DNA of 64,000 nucleotides from an uncultured Bacteroidota bacterium (lineage in GTDB: Bacteria; Bacteroidota; Bacteroidia; 2-12-FULL-35-15). Positions 475-52,629 of the stretch are shown here, one piece after another. Under the pieces are notes generated by a model. That model saw nothing but the letters and a program-made list of their open reading frames with translations. It had not been told where the DNA came from and ran no database searches. The position numbers were made by a program, and so were the translations under genes. Location of the stretch: contig CAINDA010000045.1 in assembly GCA_903847205.1 (NCBI GenBank), positions 1 through 64,000 on the forward strand, given 5' to 3'. Position 1 is the stretch's first letter; each line of letters begins with the position of its first letter.

Positions 475-887
475 GTAATGCTGTTCAGCGGAATAACAAT
501 GCTGCATCAGTTTAATACTCCTTGGATTAACATAAATTCATTGTTGTTCAACATTGCGCCAATGCTGCACAGCAAAACCCCGATGTTGATCAACAATATA
601 ACGCTGCTGTTCCGCTTTACCGCTTTGTTGAACAACATTGCCTCGCAGCTGAACAACATCAGCCCATTGTTAAACAACAAATGAGAAAACAATCAATTTC
701 ATGCTGCTGCTGTGCAGCATTATTGCGCTGCTGTTCCGCTTTATTGCAATGCTGCACAGCAAAGCCGTATTGTTAAACAACATTAGCGCGCTGCTGAACA
801 GCATTGTTCCTCTGCTGTTCAGCTTTGCCACATTGCTGTGCAGCATTGCCCCGTTGTTGATCAACATTGCTTTATTGCTGAACAACA
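475..887. repeat. Array of 12-bp palindromes on a 21-bp period
   Basis: About 19 units have the form TG(T/C)TG-NN-CA(A/G)CA with a 9-bp spacer often close to TTGCCNCNT. Dyad centres fall at 484.5, 505.5, (526.5 degenerate), 547.5, 568.5, 589.5, 610.5, 631.5, 652.5 and 673.5, then after a 40-bp step at 713.5, 734.5, 755.5, 776.5, 797.5, 818.5, 839.5, 860.5 and 881.5. The third arm position is T or C, and the opposite position is A or G to match in most units, for example TGTTGATCAACA (584, 855) and TGCTGCACAGCA (563, 750). Imperfect units occur at 605, 647, 668, 729, 771 and 876. The period equals two DNA helical turns. It lies upstream of the FN3 gene at 1313. Confidence 0.9.
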
Positions 888-1312
888 GGCAGAAACTGAT
901 GTAAAACATCCTGCTGCAGCTGAGCCGCAAGGCTGTTTTGCGGATGGATGCTGTAAATTATTGAATTAAAATAAAAAACATGTTTCATAAATTCACCCCG
1001 CAGACAGGGCGTTTCAAACGTTTTATTTCATAAATATTTTTATGCTGAAAGATGATTTTATATTTCTGGCACGCAATATGTTTATCGTGTAATAACAAAA
1101 AATAATTCAGCTCTAAAAAAATATAAATAACCAAACAGTCAATATAACCAGCCCCGGCAGAAGCCTTCTGCAAAAATAAAAAACCATGATTATAAACTTA
1201 CGCTGTACAGAATCAATTAATAAATTACAAACCTGCAGCGGATAGTTTTTGTTCCAAACGTATCCGGAATGTTTAAGACCATTAACCTTTCGCTGCGCAA
1301 AAAACAAAAACC
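888..1312. other. Intergenic stretch between palindrome array and FN3 gene
   Basis: This is about 425 bp of AT-rich DNA without a convincing coding frame. The left end carries CTGCTGCAGCTG near 911-922, which may be a decayed array unit, but the 21-bp register is lost. No clear promoter with both -33 and -7 elements and no RNA gene was recognised. Confidence 0.5.
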
Positions 1313-1930
1313 ATGAAAAATATAATAAAACGCGATTTCAGCCGCTATAGTGTGCCTGATCTCATTGCTCTCACCATGAGAGTTATCAAAAACCAAACAA
1401 ATAATCCCGATTTCGTAACTCTTCAAAACGAAATGGCTCCCATGCAGCAGGCAGAGGATGATCTGAAAGATGCAAACTCCGGCAGCGGAGGCACGCAGCA
1501 AACAGAGGTAGTCGCCAATAAGAGGGTCGCGCTCACGACGCTGCTTGACGTCAATGCCACTGATGTTGAAGCTGTATGTGCCGGCAGCCGTGCAAAAGCC
1601 CTTGGTTCGGGGCATGAAGTATCTAAGGAAACAGCCGTAAAAAAGGTAATGCCTGTTAAGGTTACAAACGTAGAGGCAAAAACCAGTCTTACAAATGGCA
1701 CCATAGATGTTGACTGGTCACAGGAAGTTAACCGCGTAATTTACCGCATTGAAAAGGCTGCTGTTATTGCCGGAGTTGCCGGCCCTTTTACTACTGCTGG
1801 TTATACTACTAAGCTTAAATATTCAGTAACAGGGCTTAGTGCGGGTGTAACCTATCAGTTCAGGGTAATTTCAATTAATAACCTCGGCGAAAGTATTCCC
1901 AGCGACGTTGCAACTGCTATGAGTTTGTAA
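1313..1930 (+). CDS. Fibronectin type III domain protein (helical N-terminus plus FN3)
   Basis: The 205-residue protein has no clear signal peptide. Residues about 1-100 look helical and include a glycine-rich turn (GSGGT near 57-61). Residues about 112-205 look like one FN3 domain, with the typical late motif GLSAGVTYQFRV (about 175-186) and a strand ending in VATAMSL. The 199-residue product at 51352-51951 has the same layout: an N-terminal helix block, a shared TNN at about 29-31, a KAL(G/S)SG motif just before the FN3 part, and a C-terminal FN3 domain with GLTPGVKYWFRV. I read the two as distant relatives, by eye only. I know this as a Bacteroidetes-type architecture without an assigned function. 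The gene stands alone, is preceded by the 21-bp palindrome array and is followed 20 bp later by an IS element. Confidence 0.75.
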   Translation: MKNIIKRDFSRYSVPDLIALTMRVIKNQTNNPDFVTLQNEMAPMQQAEDDLKDANSGSGGTQQTEVVANKRVALTTLLDVNATDVEAVCAGSRAKALGSGHEVSKETAVKKVMPVKVTNVEAKTSLTNGTIDVDWSQEVNRVIYRIEKAAVIAGVAGPFTTAGYTTKLKYSVTGLSAGVTYQFRVISINNLGESIPSDVATAMSL

Positions 1931-2083: not shown

Positions 2084-3619
2084 GTGAAGCCAAATTCAAA
2101 AGTGGTATTTAAAGACTACATTAACAACCAGCCAATGCTTTTGCCACCATCGATAGATGAGTTAATAGAAGCGAACCACCCCGTACGAACCGTAAACAGG
2201 GTAATAGACAGTATAGATTTAAACCATTTAATTAAGCGCTATAAAGGCGGTGGAACCTCAAGTTATCACCCTCGTATGCTTTTGAAAGTATTGGTATACT
2301 CATACCTGTGTAATACGTATAGCAGCCGTAAAATAGAAGAAGGCTTGAAAAGCAATATTCATTTAATGTGGCTTAGTGGTATGCAGCAGCCCGACCATAA
2401 TACCATCAATCGCTTTAGAGGGGAGCGATTAAAAGAAGTTTTAAAAACACTTTTTGCTCAGGTAGTAGAATTATTAGCCCAAAGCGGTCATTTAAGTTTA
2501 AAAGAAGTATATACAGATGGGACCAAAATAGAAGCCAATGCCAATCGTTACACATTTGTTTGGGGCAATAGCATTAAGTATCACAGATCGAAAATGGAAT
2601 CACAGCTAAAAGAGTTGTGGGCATACACCGAACGGGTTGCAGCAGAAGAGTTGAAAGATGAAATGCCACCTGAGTTTAAAGAAATTAGTTCACAAGAGCT
2701 GGAAAAAGCGATTACTAAAATCCACAAGATATTAAAAGATAAAGAGCAGGTACCAAATAAAGTGAAGCAGAAATTAAATTATATGAAGCGTGAATGGCCT
2801 AAAAACATTGCTAAATATAAAGAACAGGAATCCATACTAAAAAACAGAAACAGTTATTCAAAAACAGATAACGAAGCAACGTTTATGCGTATGAAAGAAG
2901 ATCATATGAAAAACGGGCAGCTAAAGCCGGCATATAATTTACAAGTATCTAGTAACAATCAGTTCATCCTGCATTACAGCCTACATCCCAACCCCACTGA
3001 TACCAACACACTTGTTCCTCACTTACACTCGTTCAAAAAATTATATAAATCAGCGCCTGATATTGTAACTGCTGACGCAGACTATGGATCGGAAGAAAAT
3101 TACGTATTCCTGAAACAACAAAATATTAAAGCTTTAATAAAATATAGCACGTTCGATAAAGAGCAAGATAAAAATTACTTAAAAGAAAATTACAGATCGG
3201 ATTACTTGGCTTATGACGCAGAAACGGATACAGTAATCTGTCCATCGGGTAAACCAATGCACCAAACACATTGCTATACCAGAACAACATCAACAGGCTT
3301 TAAACAAAACTATACAAATTACACCGCAGTAAATTGCAAAGATTGTATTCTAAGGAGTAAATGTCATACAGCAAAATCAAATAGAAGTGTAGGTATTAAT
3401 CACTCTCTGCGTGCTCATAAACAGCAAGTCAACGAAAATTTGAAGAGTGAAGAAGGTGTTTATCACAGAAAAAAAAGATGTCATGACGTAGAACCAGTGT
3501 TTGCTAATATCAAGCACAACAAAAAATTTAACCGATTTAGTTTAAGAGGCATTAAAAAGGTTGAAATAGAAGCTGGATTACTTGCTTTAGCACACAACTT
3601 AAAGAAAGCTGCTCAATAG
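2084..3619 (+). CDS. IS1182-family transposase
   Basis: The product is about 511 residues. The N-terminal part (about 15-120) has the DUF772-like pattern of this family: ANHPVR, YHPRMLLKVL, YSSRKIEEGL, then DHNTINRFR. The DDE catalytic region has a first Asp in YTDGTKIEANAN (about 145), a second in TADADYGSEE (about 345) and a likely Glu in VEIEAGLLALAHN near the C-terminus. A Cys-containing segment (CKDCILRSKCHT) precedes the last block, as is usual in the family. The best start is a GTG at 2084; there is no ATG before an internal Met at codon 17, so the exact start is uncertain. The frame is intact, with no frameshift. It would cut and join the element's own ends. Confidence 0.9.
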   Translation: MKPNSKVVFKDYINNQPMLLPPSIDELIEANHPVRTVNRVIDSIDLNHLIKRYKGGGTSSYHPRMLLKVLVYSYLCNTYSSRKIEEGLKSNIHLMWLSGMQQPDHNTINRFRGERLKEVLKTLFAQVVELLAQSGHLSLKEVYTDGTKIEANANRYTFVWGNSIKYHRSKMESQLKELWAYTERVAAEELKDEMPPEFKEISSQELEKAITKIHKILKDKEQVPNKVKQKLNYMKREWPKNIAKYKEQESILKNRNSYSKTDNEATFMRMKEDHMKNGQLKPAYNLQVSSNNQFILHYSLHPNPTDTNTLVPHLHSFKKLYKSAPDIVTADADYGSEENYVFLKQQNIKALIKYSTFDKEQDKNYLKENYRSDYLAYDAETDTVICPSGKPMHQTHCYTRTTSTGFKQNYTNYTAVNCKDCILRSKCHTAKSNRSVGINHSLRAHKQQVNENLKSEEGVYHRKKRCHDVEPVFANIKHNKKFNRFSLRGIKKVEIEAGLLALAHNLKKAAQ

Positions 3620-4062: not shown

Positions 4063-6354
4063 ATGAACAATTACGACTTTCTGACATTATCACCAAATGA
4101 GTTTGAACACTTGACAAGGGACTTATTGCAAAAAAAACTCAATGTGTTTATTGAGAGTTTTACGGCTGGGAGAGACGGCGGTATTGACCTAAGATGTGCA
4201 AAGAACAAGAGCAAGACAATAATCATTCAAGCGAAGAGATATAGAGATTTAAGTTCCTTATTAAGTAATCTTAAGAAGGAGGTTAAAAAAGTAAATGACC
4301 TAAAGCCCAACAGATATATTATATCAACAACAGTTGGCTTATCGCCTGGCAATAAAACAGATATTTTAAATTTATTTTCACCATACATTCAAAATACAGA
4401 CGATATATTTGGAAAAGATGACATTAATAATCTAATTGGATTAAATAAGGACATTGAATTAAAATACTACAAACTATGGCTATCAAGCACCAGCATACTT
4501 GAGAAAGTTTTACATAGTAAAATTTATAATCAGTCGGCATTTGAATTAGAAGAAATCAGAGAGCAAGTGAGACTTTATGTTCAAAATGATAGTTTTAATA
4601 CCGGAATAAAAATTCTTAAAGAACATAAATATGTAATCATTTCCGGAATTCCAGGTATCGGGAAAACCACCCTAGCAAGAATCTTAACATTGTACTTATT
4701 ATCAAATGATTTTGATGAATTTGTATATTTAAACGATACAATAGACGATGGCTATGAATATTTTCAAGAAGGAAAAAAACAAATATTTTTCTTTGATGAT
4801 TTTTTAGGTAAGAACTTTTTTGAAAGCAAACTTCATCCGAATGAAGATAATAAAGTTGTAAAATTCATTGAGAAAATTAAGAAATCTCCAGATAAGGTAT
4901 TAATTTTAGCTACCAGAGAATACATTCTTAATCAGGCTAAATTATCATTCGAGGCTTTCAAAATCAACAACATTGAAATTGCAAAATGTATCTTAGACCT
5001 TGATTCTTATACAAATGTAATCAAGGCACAAATTTTATATAACCATTTATTTTTTGCGGACGTGCCTCAAAGTCATTTAGCTGATCTAATTGAACCCAAA
5101 AAGCATTTAAAAATTGTAAAGCATCTAAATTACAATCCTCGAGTAATAGAAACACTTATTAATAGAAAAATCTGGGAATCATGTGAAGCTACACAATTTT
5201 CAAATGCAATTAAATCTTACTTTGATAACCCAGAAAGTGTATGGCTATATGCTTTTGAAAACTCTTTAAACAAATTTTCGCAGTATACTTTACTTGTTCT
5301 TTTGACAATGGGGACACCCGTTAAAATTGACGATCTTGAAGAGGCATTAATAGCATTTCTTAAAATCAATCAATATAAATTTCAAATACCTTTTGACTCT
5401 ATTCTATTTACTCGTTCTCTAAAAGAATTAGAAAATACATTTATTAAAACACAAAAAGACTCTTATAATATTGTAGCTGTTCAATATCAAAACCCTTCAA
5501 TTCAAGACTTTCTAGTAAATTATTTAAGAGGTAAAAATGACTTAATTATTAGTTTAATTGAAGGCTCCATTTTTAAAGAACAATTTTTCAATGTTTTCAC
5601 AACAGTAAAAGATGATGAAAATACACTAAAGAAAAAGATTTTAGTAAATGAAGTTTTATGTAATGTTGCTTTTGAGACAATAGAAGAAAGATACTCAATA
5701 CTTAAAAATTGCAGAGCATTTAAATTCAAATATTCTGATAATGAAACCTCCTATTGGAATGTAAATTCTGACACCAAATATCAATTTCTTGATCGAATTT
5801 TGACAGAGTTAGAGATTCATAGTACAAAAGCAGTAGCTTTTGTTAAAGAGAAGTTTAAAGCCATTATTTACATTGATGACTTATCCTATTCTGAACAAAG
5901 TGCGTACTTAAAACTTTTGACAAACCTAAATATTCAAGGTATCGAATTTAATGAAGAAAAAATAATTGACTCTTTTCTGACTAAAATTATATGGCTTGAC
6001 AATTTAGAATTGTTTTCTAAGTTAAAAGATCTTTTCCCAACAACATTTAAGGATACTATAAGTGAGAATTCTTTTTTTTATAAAATCGAGGAATTAGTTA
6101 AAGAAGAAATGGAAAGGGTAGAAGATTCTGATATGGATACATTGAAAAATCAAATAGAATTAATAGAAACAGAATATTGTCTTGACTTGAACTGGTATGT
6201 AACGGAATTAACAAAGAAGATTAAGGAATATGATGAATATATTGATTCACAAATTGATAGTGACATAGAAGACGGTATTGATAGAATGGAAGACAAAGAA
6301 ATTGATGAAGGAGAATTAATTGAAGAAATATTTAAAAGTTTAGCAGCTGAATAA
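4063..6354 (+). CDS. Mrr-like restriction endonuclease / STAND NTPase, probable anti-phage protein
   Basis: The 763-residue protein has two recognisable parts. Residues about 8-110 resemble an Mrr-type PD-(D/E)XK nuclease: FEHLTRDLL, then GRDGGIDL with Asp38/Asp42, then IIIQAKRY with Gln56 and Lys58. Residues about 185-400 form a STAND-type P-loop NTPase with Walker A GIPGIGKTT (about 195-203) and Walker B QIFFFDDF (about 240). The remaining ~350 residues are helical, probably a sensor region, and end in a very acidic tail. Nuclease-STAND fusions in this position (Avs-like or nSTAND proteins) are known to sense phage proteins and degrade DNA; applying that here is inference. The gene is visibly more AT-rich than the downstream housekeeping genes, suggesting transfer. 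The OLD nuclease gene follows 36 bp later. Confidence 0.8.
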   Translation: MNNYDFLTLSPNEFEHLTRDLLQKKLNVFIESFTAGRDGGIDLRCAKNKSKTIIIQAKRYRDLSSLLSNLKKEVKKVNDLKPNRYIISTTVGLSPGNKTDILNLFSPYIQNTDDIFGKDDINNLIGLNKDIELKYYKLWLSSTSILEKVLHSKIYNQSAFELEEIREQVRLYVQNDSFNTGIKILKEHKYVIISGIPGIGKTTLARILTLYLLSNDFDEFVYLNDTIDDGYEYFQEGKKQIFFFDDFLGKNFFESKLHPNEDNKVVKFIEKIKKSPDKVLILATREYILNQAKLSFEAFKINNIEIAKCILDLDSYTNVIKAQILYNHLFFADVPQSHLADLIEPKKHLKIVKHLNYNPRVIETLINRKIWESCEATQFSNAIKSYFDNPESVWLYAFENSLNKFSQYTLLVLLTMGTPVKIDDLEEALIAFLKINQYKFQIPFDSILFTRSLKELENTFIKTQKDSYNIVAVQYQNPSIQDFLVNYLRGKNDLIISLIEGSIFKEQFFNVFTTVKDDENTLKKKILVNEVLCNVAFETIEERYSILKNCRAFKFKYSDNETSYWNVNSDTKYQFLDRILTELEIHSTKAVAFVKEKFKAIIYIDDLSYSEQSAYLKLLTNLNIQGIEFNEEKIIDSFLTKIIWLDNLELFSKLKDLFPTTFKDTISENSFFYKIEELVKEEMERVEDSDMDTLKNQIELIETEYCLDLNWYVTELTKKIKEYDEYIDSQIDSDIEDGIDRMEDKEIDEGELIEEIFKSLAAE

Positions 6355-6390
6355 GAAAAACGGTAGCTTAAGCAAAACAATATAAATAAT

Positions 6391-8439
6391 ATGAAAATAA
6401 AATCTATTCGCCTACAAAACTTCAAGACATTTGATTCCAAACCTGGAATTAATTTTTCTTTTAACGACCTAACTGCTCTTATCGGAGAAAATAGTGTTGG
6501 TAAGTCAAATATCTTGGAAGCACTTGAATTGTTTTTCAATTTTTCACAATCAAAAATATCAATCAAAAGTTTTCATCACGACAATTATCTTCTTCCGATT
6601 TTAATTCAATTGAATTTTCATCAACTCAATGCGGAAGAATTACGTACTTTTTCATCTCATTTAGATGATTATCAAAACTTGACAATTACACAATATATTC
6701 AAGCAGTTTCAGCAGACGAAGAGCAAGAACTTACAGAAGTCGGTGAAGACCAAATTAATTTTATTGAATCTAAACACGGAACAAAACTTCAACCAATAGC
6801 AGAATATAATTGGTCACTTTTAGAAGATAAGTTACCGACTAAAGCAAACTTAAAAGCTTGGTGGAAAAAAGAATTAAAGGTTGGTGATTTTGATTTCAAA
6901 TCTGTATTTGAAAGCGCCGATGAGCCCACTCAAGAAGTTTACCAAGAAAAACTAAAAACACTTTGGGAAAACCATTCAGCGAAAATACCACAAGAAAGAA
7001 TAACCGGAGATGAAAAAATGTTAGGATGGAAAAGTAAGCTCAAAGCTAATTTGCCAAAATACTTTTACATACCTGCAATAAAAAATGTATCCGATGATTT
7101 GAAGAATACAAAATCAAGTGCACTTGGAGAATTAATTGGTTGGCTCTCTAATTCTGTTTCCAAAGAGATAAAAGATGAATTCAAAGCAAAATCAGATATC
7201 TTAGTTAAAGATTTACTTGGAAAGATTGACATTGATAATGAAGGGAAATCAAGAATTGGAAAGATTAATAAAGCATTAAATGATAATATAGGCTTTGATA
7301 TTGGTTGTTCTTTGGAATTAAAATTTGGCTCTCCCGAAATTCAGGACATTGTTTTTCCTCAACCCAAAATATTTGCCAACGATGGTTATAATTCTGAATT
7401 AACAGAAAAAGGGCACGGGATACAGAGGTTGGCTTTATTTTCCCTTTTGAGAACTTATAACACATTTGATTTTGGAAAAAAATCAGTTGACCGAAATATA
7501 ATAATCGGCATTGAAGAGCCAGAAATATATTTACACCCACCCTTGAAACGAGCGACTTATGCTTTACTCCGAAACATTTCTTTAAGTAAAGACCAAGTTA
7601 TTTATTCAACACACGACAGTTTATTTTTATCAGTAGAATATTTTGATGAGATTAGATTGTTTAGAAAATCAGATGACAAAAGCCCTATAACAACAGTATA
7701 TGAACTTTCAATAAAACCATTTATTGACTTTTATCATAGAAGCTATGGACTTACTATTAATGAGAAAAGTATTCGTCATAGATTTTACCACTTAATTGAC
7801 GAAACTAAGAATGAAGGGTTCTTTGCTAAAAAAATAATTCTAATTGAAGGAGAAACAGAAAAATACTCTTTACCTAATTATTTTAAAGCAAAAGGGTTTG
7901 ACATAGACACCAATAGAATTGCAATGATTAGTGCGGGTTCAGTAGATAACATTTCATATTTACTTTTAACTTTTAACGAATTCAGAATTCCTTGCTATGT
8001 AATTTTTGATGGCGACAAACCTGTAACGGATCCTAATGGATTAGTTGATCCGCAAAAAAGAGATGCTATAAACAAATCAAAACGTAACAAGGAAATATTT
8101 ACTCTTTTAGGACATAAATCCCCAGACGATTTATTTTTCTTTCCGCCAACAAAAATTGACAATAACTATTCCGTTTGGGAAAAAGATTTTGAAGACGAGT
8201 TTCACAAAACACTTGGCAATTATGTTGGCTTAAAATCTGAAGCAAAAGAACTTTATGGCAATGACAGCAAACCTTTGACAGCAAGGTTCATTTCCGAAAA
8301 GGTTTCTTCTGAACCAGAAAATGTAAATGCGAAAATTGACGAACTCATAATTAAAATAAAAGCCCTAAAGTGGACAAAATCAATTATGGATGAAAAAGTA
8401 GCAATCGCAGAAAGAGCCCTGACAGCCGGCCCTAAATAA
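6391..8439 (+). CDS. OLD-family ATP-dependent endonuclease (AAA ATPase + TOPRIM)
   Basis: The 682-residue protein has an ABC/SMC-like ATPase with Walker A GENSVGKS (32-39), a signature-like TEKGHGIQRLALF (about 332-344), Walker B GIEEPEIYLHP (about 371) and an H-loop STHDSLF (about 408). A C-terminal TOPRIM nuclease domain follows, with LIEGETEKY (about 485) and VIFDGDKP (about 535). This order is the OLD-family overcoming-lysogenization nuclease architecture, also seen in Gabija GajA and in retron effectors. No UvrD-like gajB gene or reverse transcriptase is nearby, so those named systems are not indicated. The gap to the upstream Mrr-STAND gene is 36 bp on the same strand, so co-transcription is likely. 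Codon use is AT-rich like its partner. A role in phage defence is inference. Confidence 0.85.
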   Translation: MKIKSIRLQNFKTFDSKPGINFSFNDLTALIGENSVGKSNILEALELFFNFSQSKISIKSFHHDNYLLPILIQLNFHQLNAEELRTFSSHLDDYQNLTITQYIQAVSADEEQELTEVGEDQINFIESKHGTKLQPIAEYNWSLLEDKLPTKANLKAWWKKELKVGDFDFKSVFESADEPTQEVYQEKLKTLWENHSAKIPQERITGDEKMLGWKSKLKANLPKYFYIPAIKNVSDDLKNTKSSALGELIGWLSNSVSKEIKDEFKAKSDILVKDLLGKIDIDNEGKSRIGKINKALNDNIGFDIGCSLELKFGSPEIQDIVFPQPKIFANDGYNSELTEKGHGIQRLALFSLLRTYNTFDFGKKSVDRNIIIGIEEPEIYLHPPLKRATYALLRNISLSKDQVIYSTHDSLFLSVEYFDEIRLFRKSDDKSPITTVYELSIKPFIDFYHRSYGLTINEKSIRHRFYHLIDETKNEGFFAKKIILIEGETEKYSLPNYFKAKGFDIDTNRIAMISAGSVDNISYLLLTFNEFRIPCYVIFDGDKPVTDPNGLVDPQKRDAINKSKRNKEIFTLLGHKSPDDLFFFPPTKIDNNYSVWEKDFEDEFHKTLGNYVGLKSEAKELYGNDSKPLTARFISEKVSSEPENVNAKIDELIIKIKALKWTKSIMDEKVAIAERALTAGPK

Positions 8440-8450
8440 GAAAGCGATAT

Positions 8451-8539
8451 CACCCCCTTTCAGCGCATCATATAAAAATATTAATCGAACACGTTAAGCG
8501 CTGCGTCCCGCTGCGCTTTCTTTAACCGGCATCCTGCCG
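8451..8539. repeat. Two-hairpin ~88-bp repeat, copy 1
   Basis: The core reads TCGAACACGTTAAGCGCTGC and onward. It folds as GTTAAGCGC-T-GCG-TCC-CGC-T-GCGCTT...TTAAC, followed by CGGCA-TCC-TGCCG. It begins 11 bp after the stop codon of the OLD nuclease gene. Copies 2 (9005-9092) and 3 (9892-9981) are nearly identical over about 65 bp. Confidence 0.9.
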
Positions 8540-8625
8540 AAAATGCCAAATTGAAGCAATAATTATATCTTTGAAATAAAAATGCCGACCGGTTATCACA
8601 AATAGGCCGGAGGCCTTGTTAAAAA

Positions 8626-8648
8626 GAGCGTAGCGAGACACTACGCTC
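8626..8648. other. Hairpin upstream of small unknown gene
   Basis: GAGCGTAG (8626-8633) pairs with CTACGCTC (8641-8648) around a 7-base loop, 29 bp ahead of the start codon at 8678. It has no T-run. It could be a transcript-leader structure or a fragment of a repeat; the function is unknown. Confidence 0.6.
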
Positions 8649-8677
8649 AACGTGGAGGGTAATTCAACAATCATTTT

Positions 8678-9028
8678 ATGGGCAATTACGAATTGAGTGA
8701 TGAAGAAAAAGAAATTCTTCGAAAAATGAAAGAAGAAGAAAATATAGGAGCTGAAAAGGAACATTTATTTTGGTATAGCGAATACCCTAATTACTCTATT
8801 GATAGTAAAGTTAAATATTGGGTTGCTAATATTCATCATGGAATGAGGCAGCAAGGTGATGTTATGGGAGATATGTATACTGAGTTTTCTAAAAAATGGT
8901 ATTTAGATGTCAAAGAAAAAGAACCTGACTTTGATTCTATTTTTAAAGAGGTTGTCTCTAAATTAGACTTTGATTTTAATTGGGACGAATATTACAGACG
9001 CATATCCCCCGTTCAGCGCGGCGAATAA
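8678..9028 (+). CDS. Small acidic protein of unknown function
   Basis: I do not recognise this 116-residue product. It begins with a charged helix (DEEKEILRKMKEEE, about 8-21), is rich in Trp and Tyr (WYSEYPNY, VKYWVANIHHGM), has no signal peptide or membrane segment, and ends RISPVQRGE. The last 8-9 codons lie inside copy 2 of the ~88-bp repeat, so the repeat supplies the stop codon and C-terminus. This suggests the gene was joined to the repeat, or the repeat inserted into its end. A TAnnTTTG-like box (TATCTTTG, 8566-8573) and a hairpin lie upstream. It sits between the OLD nuclease and the MntA/HepT pair. The coding nature is moderately sure; the function is unknown. Confidence 0.6.
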   Translation: MGNYELSDEEKEILRKMKEEENIGAEKEHLFWYSEYPNYSIDSKVKYWVANIHHGMRQQGDVMGDMYTEFSKKWYLDVKEKEPDFDSIFKEVVSKLDFDFNWDEYYRRISPVQRGE

Positions 9029-51351: not shown

Positions 51352-51951
51352 TTATACAACATGCACCATTACCGGGTTACACCAAGGCCGCTGACCGGCA
51401 GGAGTAACCAAGGCAACTCTGAACCAGTACTTAACACCGGGGGTTAAACCGTTAATTGTAAAACTGGCCTGGGAAGTGGTTGCAGCAACCAGCCAGCTGG
51501 CTTCAACAATAGGGTCAGTGGTATATCCCCAGATATACGAATTGCCGCCTGCCGGTGAACTGACATCTACACTTCCAGATTGTAATCCCTGCACCGCATT
51601 GAAAACATTTGAAGGTGCCTGACGCGGTCCAACTAAACTAAAGCCGCTGCTAAGCGCTTTTGCTGTATCAGTATTACTCTCGAAAACAACATAAGCTGCC
51701 AGTGCGGTTAAAACACGGTTAAGCTCGTGTTTGGCCAGCTTTACAACTTCAGAGCTTGCCTTATCGCCGGGATGCTGCGCTGCAAGGGCACTGACAAGGT
51801 TGTTTACCGCGGTTTGTAAAATACCAAGAACTGGGTAAGGGTTAATAAAAAAAGCGTTATTTGTAATTGCCGAAATCACACTTTGTGCGAATATGGCTAA
51901 AAGGGCTGCGCTTACTGATTTAAAGTTAAGCGAAATTCTAACAGTTTTCAT
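51352..51951 (-). CDS. Fibronectin type III domain protein, second copy
   Basis: In the 199-residue product, residues about 1-95 are helical (LLAIFAQSVISAITNNAFF, VVKLAKHELNRVLTALAAYV). Residues about 110-199 are FN3-like, with SFTINGLTPGVKYWFRVALVTPAGQ and the final strand. It shares the layout of the 1313-1930 product, with TNN near residue 31, a central helix and the KALSSGF segment before the FN3. No signal peptide is clear, though the start is mildly hydrophobic. Its upstream DNA (52262-52570) carries the second periodic array, 0.3 kb from the start codon. The gene stands alone and ends at a shared terminator. Confidence 0.75.
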   Translation of the reverse strand: MKTVRISLNFKSVSAALLAIFAQSVISAITNNAFFINPYPVLGILQTAVNNLVSALAAQHPGDKASSEVVKLAKHELNRVLTALAAYVVFESNTDTAKALSSGFSLVGPRQAPSNVFNAVQGLQSGSVDVSSPAGGNSYIWGYTTDPIVEASWLVAATTSQASFTINGLTPGVKYWFRVALVTPAGQRPWCNPVMVHVV

Positions 51952-52261
51952 TGTTTTAATGTATAATACCCCTCACACGGTGTCTCCTGAAGCTTGCTAT
52001 GAAGCTGTTCTGATCTTGGAGTTGTTAGTTGCGATTTAGGAAAAACACCTGAGTAAATATATCATCATGAGAATGGAATTTGCAGTGTTTAACGGACATT
52101 CCGTAATAAAGGTTACATAAAAATCAATATTAACAGGCATTTTAAAGACTTTTTAATTTAAAACGCACTTTTTAAAGCAGTTGCACGAGAAATTAAATTG
52201 CATTTAATCTCTAAGAAAGCAAAACAAACATTAAAAACACCAAAACAGTCTTGATTAGGGC
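51952..52261. other. Stretch between second FN3 gene and periodic array
   Basis: This is about 310 bp of AT-rich DNA without a coding frame. No similarity by eye to the matching stretch before the first FN3 gene (888-1312). No clear promoter was found. Confidence 0.5.
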
Positions 52262-52570
52262 TTAATGAAGATTGTTTACTCCGAAACAACAATTTTTAGG
52301 CCTGAACAAGATTGAATCACTGCTATCGAAGATTGTTTCGCCCTAAACAATGTTGTTTCAGACCGATCGAAGATTGAATCACCCAGATTGAAGATTGTTT
52401 CGCCCTAAACAAGATTGTTTCGGGGCGATTGAAGATTAAATCGCTCCGATTGAAGATTGTTTCGCCCTAAACAATGTTATTTCAGACCGATCGAAGATTG
52501 AATCACTGCGATTGAAGATTGTTTCACCCTAAACAAGGTTGTTTCGGGGCGATCGAAGATTAAATCAAGG
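52262..52570. repeat. Array of 20-21-bp units in a 62-bp higher-order repeat
   Basis: Fifteen units have cores (AAGATTG-like) at 52268, 52288, 52308, 52329, 52349, 52370, 52391, 52411, 52432, 52453, 52473, 52494, 52515, 52535 and 52556. Each unit has a left arm AAACAA or GAT(T/C)GAA and a right arm TTGTTTC or TT(G/A)AATC. Three kinds recur in fixed order: GAT...TTTC hybrid, AAACAA...TTGTTT, and GAT...AATC. Five such trimers follow one another at 61-62 bp; the first is degenerate. AAACAA-NN-TTGTTT and GATT-N8-AATC are near-palindromic. It lies upstream of the FN3 gene. Confidence 0.9.
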
Positions 52571-52629
52571 CTTGACACATTGATATTGCGCTCAGCAATG
52601 CTTGAAAAGGCTTCCAAAATGCGGTTTAA

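Follow-up and report, generated by a model that had tools for sequence, protein, structure and literature searches.

The window, by which we mean the whole stretch of DNA analysed, comprises bases 1 to 64,000 of contig C45 in a 5.49-Mb Bacteroidota genome. Near its start lies a tandem array of short dyads followed by a small gene with a fibronectin type III (FN3) domain, and a second array stands beside a paralogous gene further along. The features are as follows.

479 to 679, no strand: array block 1, ten dyad units (TGYTGNNCARCA) at exact 21-bp steps, starting at 479+21n
708 to 887: array block 2, nine dyad units at 21-bp steps, starting at 708+21n, after a 40-bp step
888 to 1312, plus strand: AT-rich stretch from the array to the start codon, the presumed promoter and leader
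1313 to 1930, plus strand: array-associated FN3 family gene, 205 aa, with four helices (residues 14-98) and an FN3 domain (residues 113-205)
51352 to 51951, minus strand: 199-aa paralogue in the array-associated FN3 family, its gene lying immediately downstream of the second array
52250 to 52610: second array, with a 62-bp higher-order period (3 x 20.67 bp) and units around AAACAATCTTC / GATTGTTTCG

The array in the window and its gene

The preliminary description counted nineteen 12-bp dyads on a 21-bp register with one 40-bp step, and this is what we find at 479-887, the longer step falling between the unit starts at 668 and 708. The unit consensus is TGYTG-NN-CARCA; all five arm pairs are intact in nine units, and those at 500 and 521, in block 1, are strongly degraded. 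The central pair varies, as had been noted, and is palindromic in just 3 of the 19 units. At lag 21 the autocorrelation reaches 0.53 for the array as a whole and 0.64 for its best 160 bp, whereas local shuffles do not exceed 0.46, and the consensus palindrome of units 676-952 exceeds 400 column permutations (p=0.0025).

It had also been reported that T or C in the left arm changes together with A or G in the right. Within this array the covariation is nominally significant: in 16 of the 19 units the bases of arm pair 3:10 are complementary, where 9.4 would be expected on shuffling (p=0.002), with eight T:A pairs, eight C:G pairs, three C/A mismatches and no T/G mismatch. Units 792-866 are, however, mostly a copy of 708-782, an 84-bp higher-order repeat that leaves fewer independent units, and p becomes 0.017 once one copy is left out. 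Since the remaining arm pairs are nearly invariant and therefore uninformative on covariation, the window array alone gives only moderate support for a constraint on the dyad. Just ahead of the array, at 1-348, is a 125-bp tandem repeat (2.8 copies) of REP-like inverted motifs (GAGCTTGTCGAAG / TTTCGACAAGCTCAA).

The product of the gene at 1313-1930 matches PF00041 over residues 117-201 with 27.5 bits (cut-off 25), and its AlphaFold2 model has a mean pLDDT of 93, residues 113-205 matching FN3 domains with Z 14.9. For the helical part (residues 14-98) Pfam gave nothing above its cut-off, and none of the NCBIfam, PHROGs or PADLOC models spans it convincingly. Modelled alone, it could not be assigned to a known fold: its best matches are four-helix bundles, FAT and talin among them, and the top Z of 8.8 lies in the range of common arrangements. 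No canonical TAnnTTTG box was found in 888-1312, and across loci the canonical Bacteroidetes -7 box is mostly missing between array and gene, where alternative promoters are possible. Immediately behind the FN3 gene lies a transposase gene (2084-3619; DDE_Tnp_1_6 and DUF772 domains, probably IS1182-like), and 4063-9028 holds putative defence genes, Mrr-like nuclease plus nSTAND3 (PADLOC PDC-S73, E 1e-151), then an OLD/GajA/AriA-like ATPase-TOPRIM protein.

Distribution of arrays and their genes

A family profile built from 14 paralogues recovers over 20 full members or remnants from the source genome, and members occur, patchily and in multiple copies, in many genus-mates and in other families of the class. 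Nearly every member adjoins an array of 20-22-bp period, the unit of which differs by locus. The preliminary description had suggested a search of related genomes for arrays upstream of FN3 genes, and its outcome was strongly positive. With lags of 20-22, 41-43 and 62-63 bp, an upstream array was detected at about 99 of 115 distinct member genes (a few of the 99 being tandem genes that share one array, or the same locus counted twice) versus 78 of 755 ordinary genes of the source genome (p~1e-63); with control lags shifted by 3 bp, 36-37 of the 755 ordinary genes pass. The 115 members, each with at least 350 bp of upstream sequence, were drawn from the source genome, genus-mates, other Bacteroidota, Ignavibacteria and a gammaproteobacterial MAG.

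The array usually lies 40-460 bp upstream of the family gene. Named relatives that carry both are Mesonia hippocampi (DSM 29568, locus L114), Pedobacter planticolens (LMG 31464, locus L117) and a Methylococcaceae MAG; an Ignavibacteria MAG has a family-linked array with TATAC..GTATA dyads, and a GC-rich Flavobacteriales MAG one with a step of 22 bp. Among 395 evenly drawn Bacteroidota genomes, the best lag was 21, 42 or 63 bp at all 6 full-length members, strongly so in four, and such a lag was seen at 1 of 20 other FN3 proteins from the same draw. For a subset of members the array is downstream rather than upstream (C56, C43, C36, C54 and C66 of the source genome; L056, L057, L059, L052 and L050). 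The net charge of the family proteins ranges from -5 to +16, and basic character is not consistent.

Several loci have peculiarities of their own. At L029 (1501-1910) and L009 (1501-2560), truncated family genes retain only the C-terminal FN3 end, which abuts the array. L096 has a short-period (7/14-bp) repeat, CCAGAAC, between array and gene at about 855-955, and L158 an additional 14-bp repeat at 350-839.

Arrays are not confined to this family. An unselected scan of 1.23 Mb of the source genome at lags 10-70 found about 27 non-coding arrays at multiples of 20-21 bp and few of any other period. Five adjoin FN3-family genes and three adjoin genes of a second family of about 330 aa, with one more beside a gene of that family on another contig (L140); the rest lie beside other small uncharacterised genes or are solitary, some between convergent genes. 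These other gene types encode products such as MINLIH.., MSTGRIPGSP.. and NNPGGIF.. (C64:296508 and C35:341348 in the source genome; L240, L241, L242 and L244). Arrays and the FN3 family also co-occur at the level of whole genomes: 545 kb from 11 genus-mates lacking the family contained no non-coding array (a single 42-bp match lay inside an ORF), versus 13 arrays in 200 kb of two genomes rich in the family. At the density of the source genome, the probability of finding none would be 6e-6.

The ~330-aa protein has an N-terminal NPF-type motif and no Pfam match above cut-off. Its loci in the source genome are C44:55715, C64:150552, C35:274297 and C34:20986. Arrays of 41/42-bp period were present upstream, at or near the start codon, at all nine loci tested in relatives (L270-L279). 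Of 59 relatives, 11 have the family, and nearly all of these also have several or many FN3-family copies, the exception (G023) having weak FN3 matches only.

Period, unit sequence and dyads

Arrays contain 10-45 phased units and range from near-perfect to decayed. Among 123 arrays, which were preselected by lag, the best period is 21.0 bp in 94, 20-20.75 bp in 19 and 21.25-22 bp in 4; the step thus spans an integral number of helical turns, the criterion applied to tandem operators and iterons, in 117 of 123 (20-22 bp), and the unselected survey agrees. Variants of 20, 20.5, 20.67 and 22 bp at equivalent positions are still about two helical turns.

The unit sequence, by contrast with the period, is not kept. 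No motif is shared genome-wide by the arrays of the source genome: among 44 of them, 46 of 946 pairs have words in common versus 35 in a reversed-sequence control. Conservation of the unit is limited to the single locus, and the arrays of proteins that are 60-75% identical have unit words in common in only 3 of 25 pairs. Two copies that arose by recent duplication within one genome are 84% identical across 2.5 kb and homologous on either side of the array; they kept the 21-bp step, but their units had largely changed. Each locus has its own unit, which evolves more quickly than the protein, and the two-turn period stays.

Dyads are a less general property. The preliminary description held that the constraint on the array is real, which is true of the spacing, as the 21-bp period (with its 20-, 20.5- and 20.67-bp variants) upstream of related FN3 genes across phyla attests, and only partly true of the dyad: a palindromic consensus at p<=0.05 was found in 26 of 98 arrays, where about 5 would be expected, and about three-quarters have no significant dyad. 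For the arrays of the source genome, the combined palindrome p is 2e-9. The covariation of the arms, tested against shuffled arms as had been suggested, does not extend from the window array to a rule for such arrays. Pooled over 37 dyad arrays it reaches z 3.4, which is equalled when the partner column is slid by 2 (z 3.6 and 2.9), and an earlier per-array test was only slightly above its controls. Because the slid controls do as well, much of the pooled covariation can be explained by copying.

A pairing structure, the other possibility raised at the outset, is not favoured. Mismatches of the G-T and the A-C kind are equally frequent (46 vs 43). The window array folds as RNA much better than shuffles (z -7.6 and -7.3), but only about half of all arrays do so, folding being weak in the other half, and the two strands show no consistent difference. 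Rfam 15 gave no match at or above its gathering score anywhere in the window, although a family absent from Rfam is possible. Intrinsic curvature from phased A-tracts was also examined and rejected, with a mean z of 0.38 over 26 arrays relative to permuted units and no signal at lags 10/11 (the 10.5-bp sub-period).

Interpretation and comparison with known systems

Our tentative reading, possible rather than probable on the evidence above, is that the array forms the DNA half of a putative two-part locus, in which a helically phased, non-coding array is paired with the gene for a small helical-bundle/FN3 protein and is bound by many copies of an oligomer. Spaced two turns of B-DNA apart (20-22 bp, mostly exactly 21), the units would all present an identical site on one face of the helix, and an oligomeric DNA-binding protein could then line up in many copies as a regular filament or wrap that may control or organise expression of the adjacent gene. 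With many weak phased sites, the exact sequence of the unit would be replaceable and could be renewed by unequal exchange; multivalency and phase are what we propose would allow the step to persist meanwhile. Dyads, where present, would fit a dimeric binder. We infer both protein binding and a regulatory role, and predict that the binder belongs to one of the array-associated families or is a protein of the host.

Some observations do not sit easily with this model. Many orphan arrays stand away from family genes, and a purely regulatory role does not fit those that lie between convergent genes. The scarcity of common unit words between arrays of proteins 60-75% identical speaks against a fixed specificity on the part of the protein next door. 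Some members have the array downstream, about three-quarters of arrays are without a significant dyad, and the helical domain offers no informative fold match and no consistently basic charge.

The main rival is that the arrays are a mutational by-product with no function of their own, in which slippage or unequal exchange over two turns expands permissive intergenic DNA, and weak constraint or local mutagenic activity determines the place. The rapid turnover of units that are unrelated between loci is what one would expect of such a process, as are the gradation from near-perfect to decayed arrays and the many orphans, some between convergent genes. We nevertheless think it unlikely, given that arrays take the same position relative to one gene family across phyla, that other FN3 genes of the phylum so rarely have them (1 of 20), and that genus-mates without the family are also without arrays. 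A row of stem-loops in a transcribed leader or in single-stranded DNA, recognised by structure, would account for the folding and arm covariation of the window array and for an AACT centre that several arrays of the ~330-aa family carry, on the gene-sense strand, within differing palindromic arms. As a general explanation we reject RNA hairpins, because there is no G-T bias, the strands fold alike and about half of the arrays are unstructured; most arrays also lack a significant dyad, no Rfam match was obtained for the window, and RNA would need no fixed two-turn step. Hairpins in the wider sense we regard as improbable.

That the neighbouring protein binds its own array, the specificities of the two co-diverging, is suggested by their adjacency, by a core (AAACAATCT) common to three members of one subfamily and by the recurrence of related arrays with related proteins across genomes. 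It is disfavoured because the units turn over so fast (the 3 of 25 pairs above) and the proteins lack a consistent basic charge; with no known DNA-binding fold either, we rate it as quite improbable. Array and gene might instead travel together as a mobile cassette, the array being a recombination or recognition site read by its structure, as in integron attC. Patchy multi-copy distribution, unrelated neighbours, scattered truncated copies that are fused to arrays, and orphan arrays that share words with gene-linked ones all agree with this; yet we saw no cassette clusters, shared end sequence or consistently linked recombinase, the three collections searched (viral, phage and plasmid) contained no relatives, and the homology of one duplicated copy runs beyond both array ends, so that a cassette seems very improbable. 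A coding role, in which 21 bp would be seven codons of a heptad-repeat peptide, draws on the open frames that cross several arrays, but any short repeat free of stops gives open frames on both strands, and in the window the frame is broken by the 40-bp step and by stop codons. We consider it as good as ruled out, since periods of 20, 41 and 62 bp at equivalent loci (as well as 20.5, 20.67 and 22 bp) are not integral numbers of codons. Curved DNA, a coding repeat, hairpin RNA and repeats of the REP or CRISPR type all fit worse than a phased protein-binding array.

Beyond the single locus, we put forward with some reserve that phased protein-binding arrays of this kind may represent a class of element defined by geometry instead of sequence: two-turn non-coding arrays with dedicated small helical/FN3 families, a patchily distributed nucleoprotein system in several phyla. 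Array and FN3 gene are strongly associated, and across phyla, and two cultured species lend themselves to testing the link; a period that is kept while the sequence is replaced would be unusual for a DNA element, and the arrays offer a handle on several protein families with no annotation beyond FN3. Should they prove to be by-products, there would be novelty in that too, since they would point to a two-turn mutational process associated with particular genes. The databases and the open-access full text searched hold no description of the pairing, and novelty is provisional within that coverage.

Plasmid iterons and partition centromeres (parC/sopC-type) are likewise tandem, helically phased sites beside a gene and are bound by an oligomeric protein, but in those systems the site has a single conserved sequence and the linked gene is that of an initiator or partition protein. 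Our arrays resemble them in geometry only, being chromosomal, multi-copy, different in unit at every locus and linked to an FN3/helical protein. With REP/BIME elements and their RAYT transposases they have in common an intergenic location, palindromic repeats and many chromosomal copies; REPs share one palindromic sequence genome-wide, whereas the arrays have no sequence in common and repeat in tandem at a strict 21 bp. CRISPR and TIGR-type arrays are also repeats tied to a protein family, but here the units adjoin every 21 bp and drift, there are no spacers and the proteins are unrelated; no recurrent family or conserved neighbour was found among the genes next to the arrays. Like integron attC, the arrays are sequence-variable palindromic elements paired with single genes that lack an assigned function, yet attC is a single downstream site and the arrays consist of 10-45 phased units, mostly upstream, without an integrase link. 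Bacterial intergenic minisatellites and VNTRs, finally, are tandem repeats that similarly expand and homogenise; the arrays described here differ from them in a fixed two-turn period and in a strict link with particular protein families across phyla.
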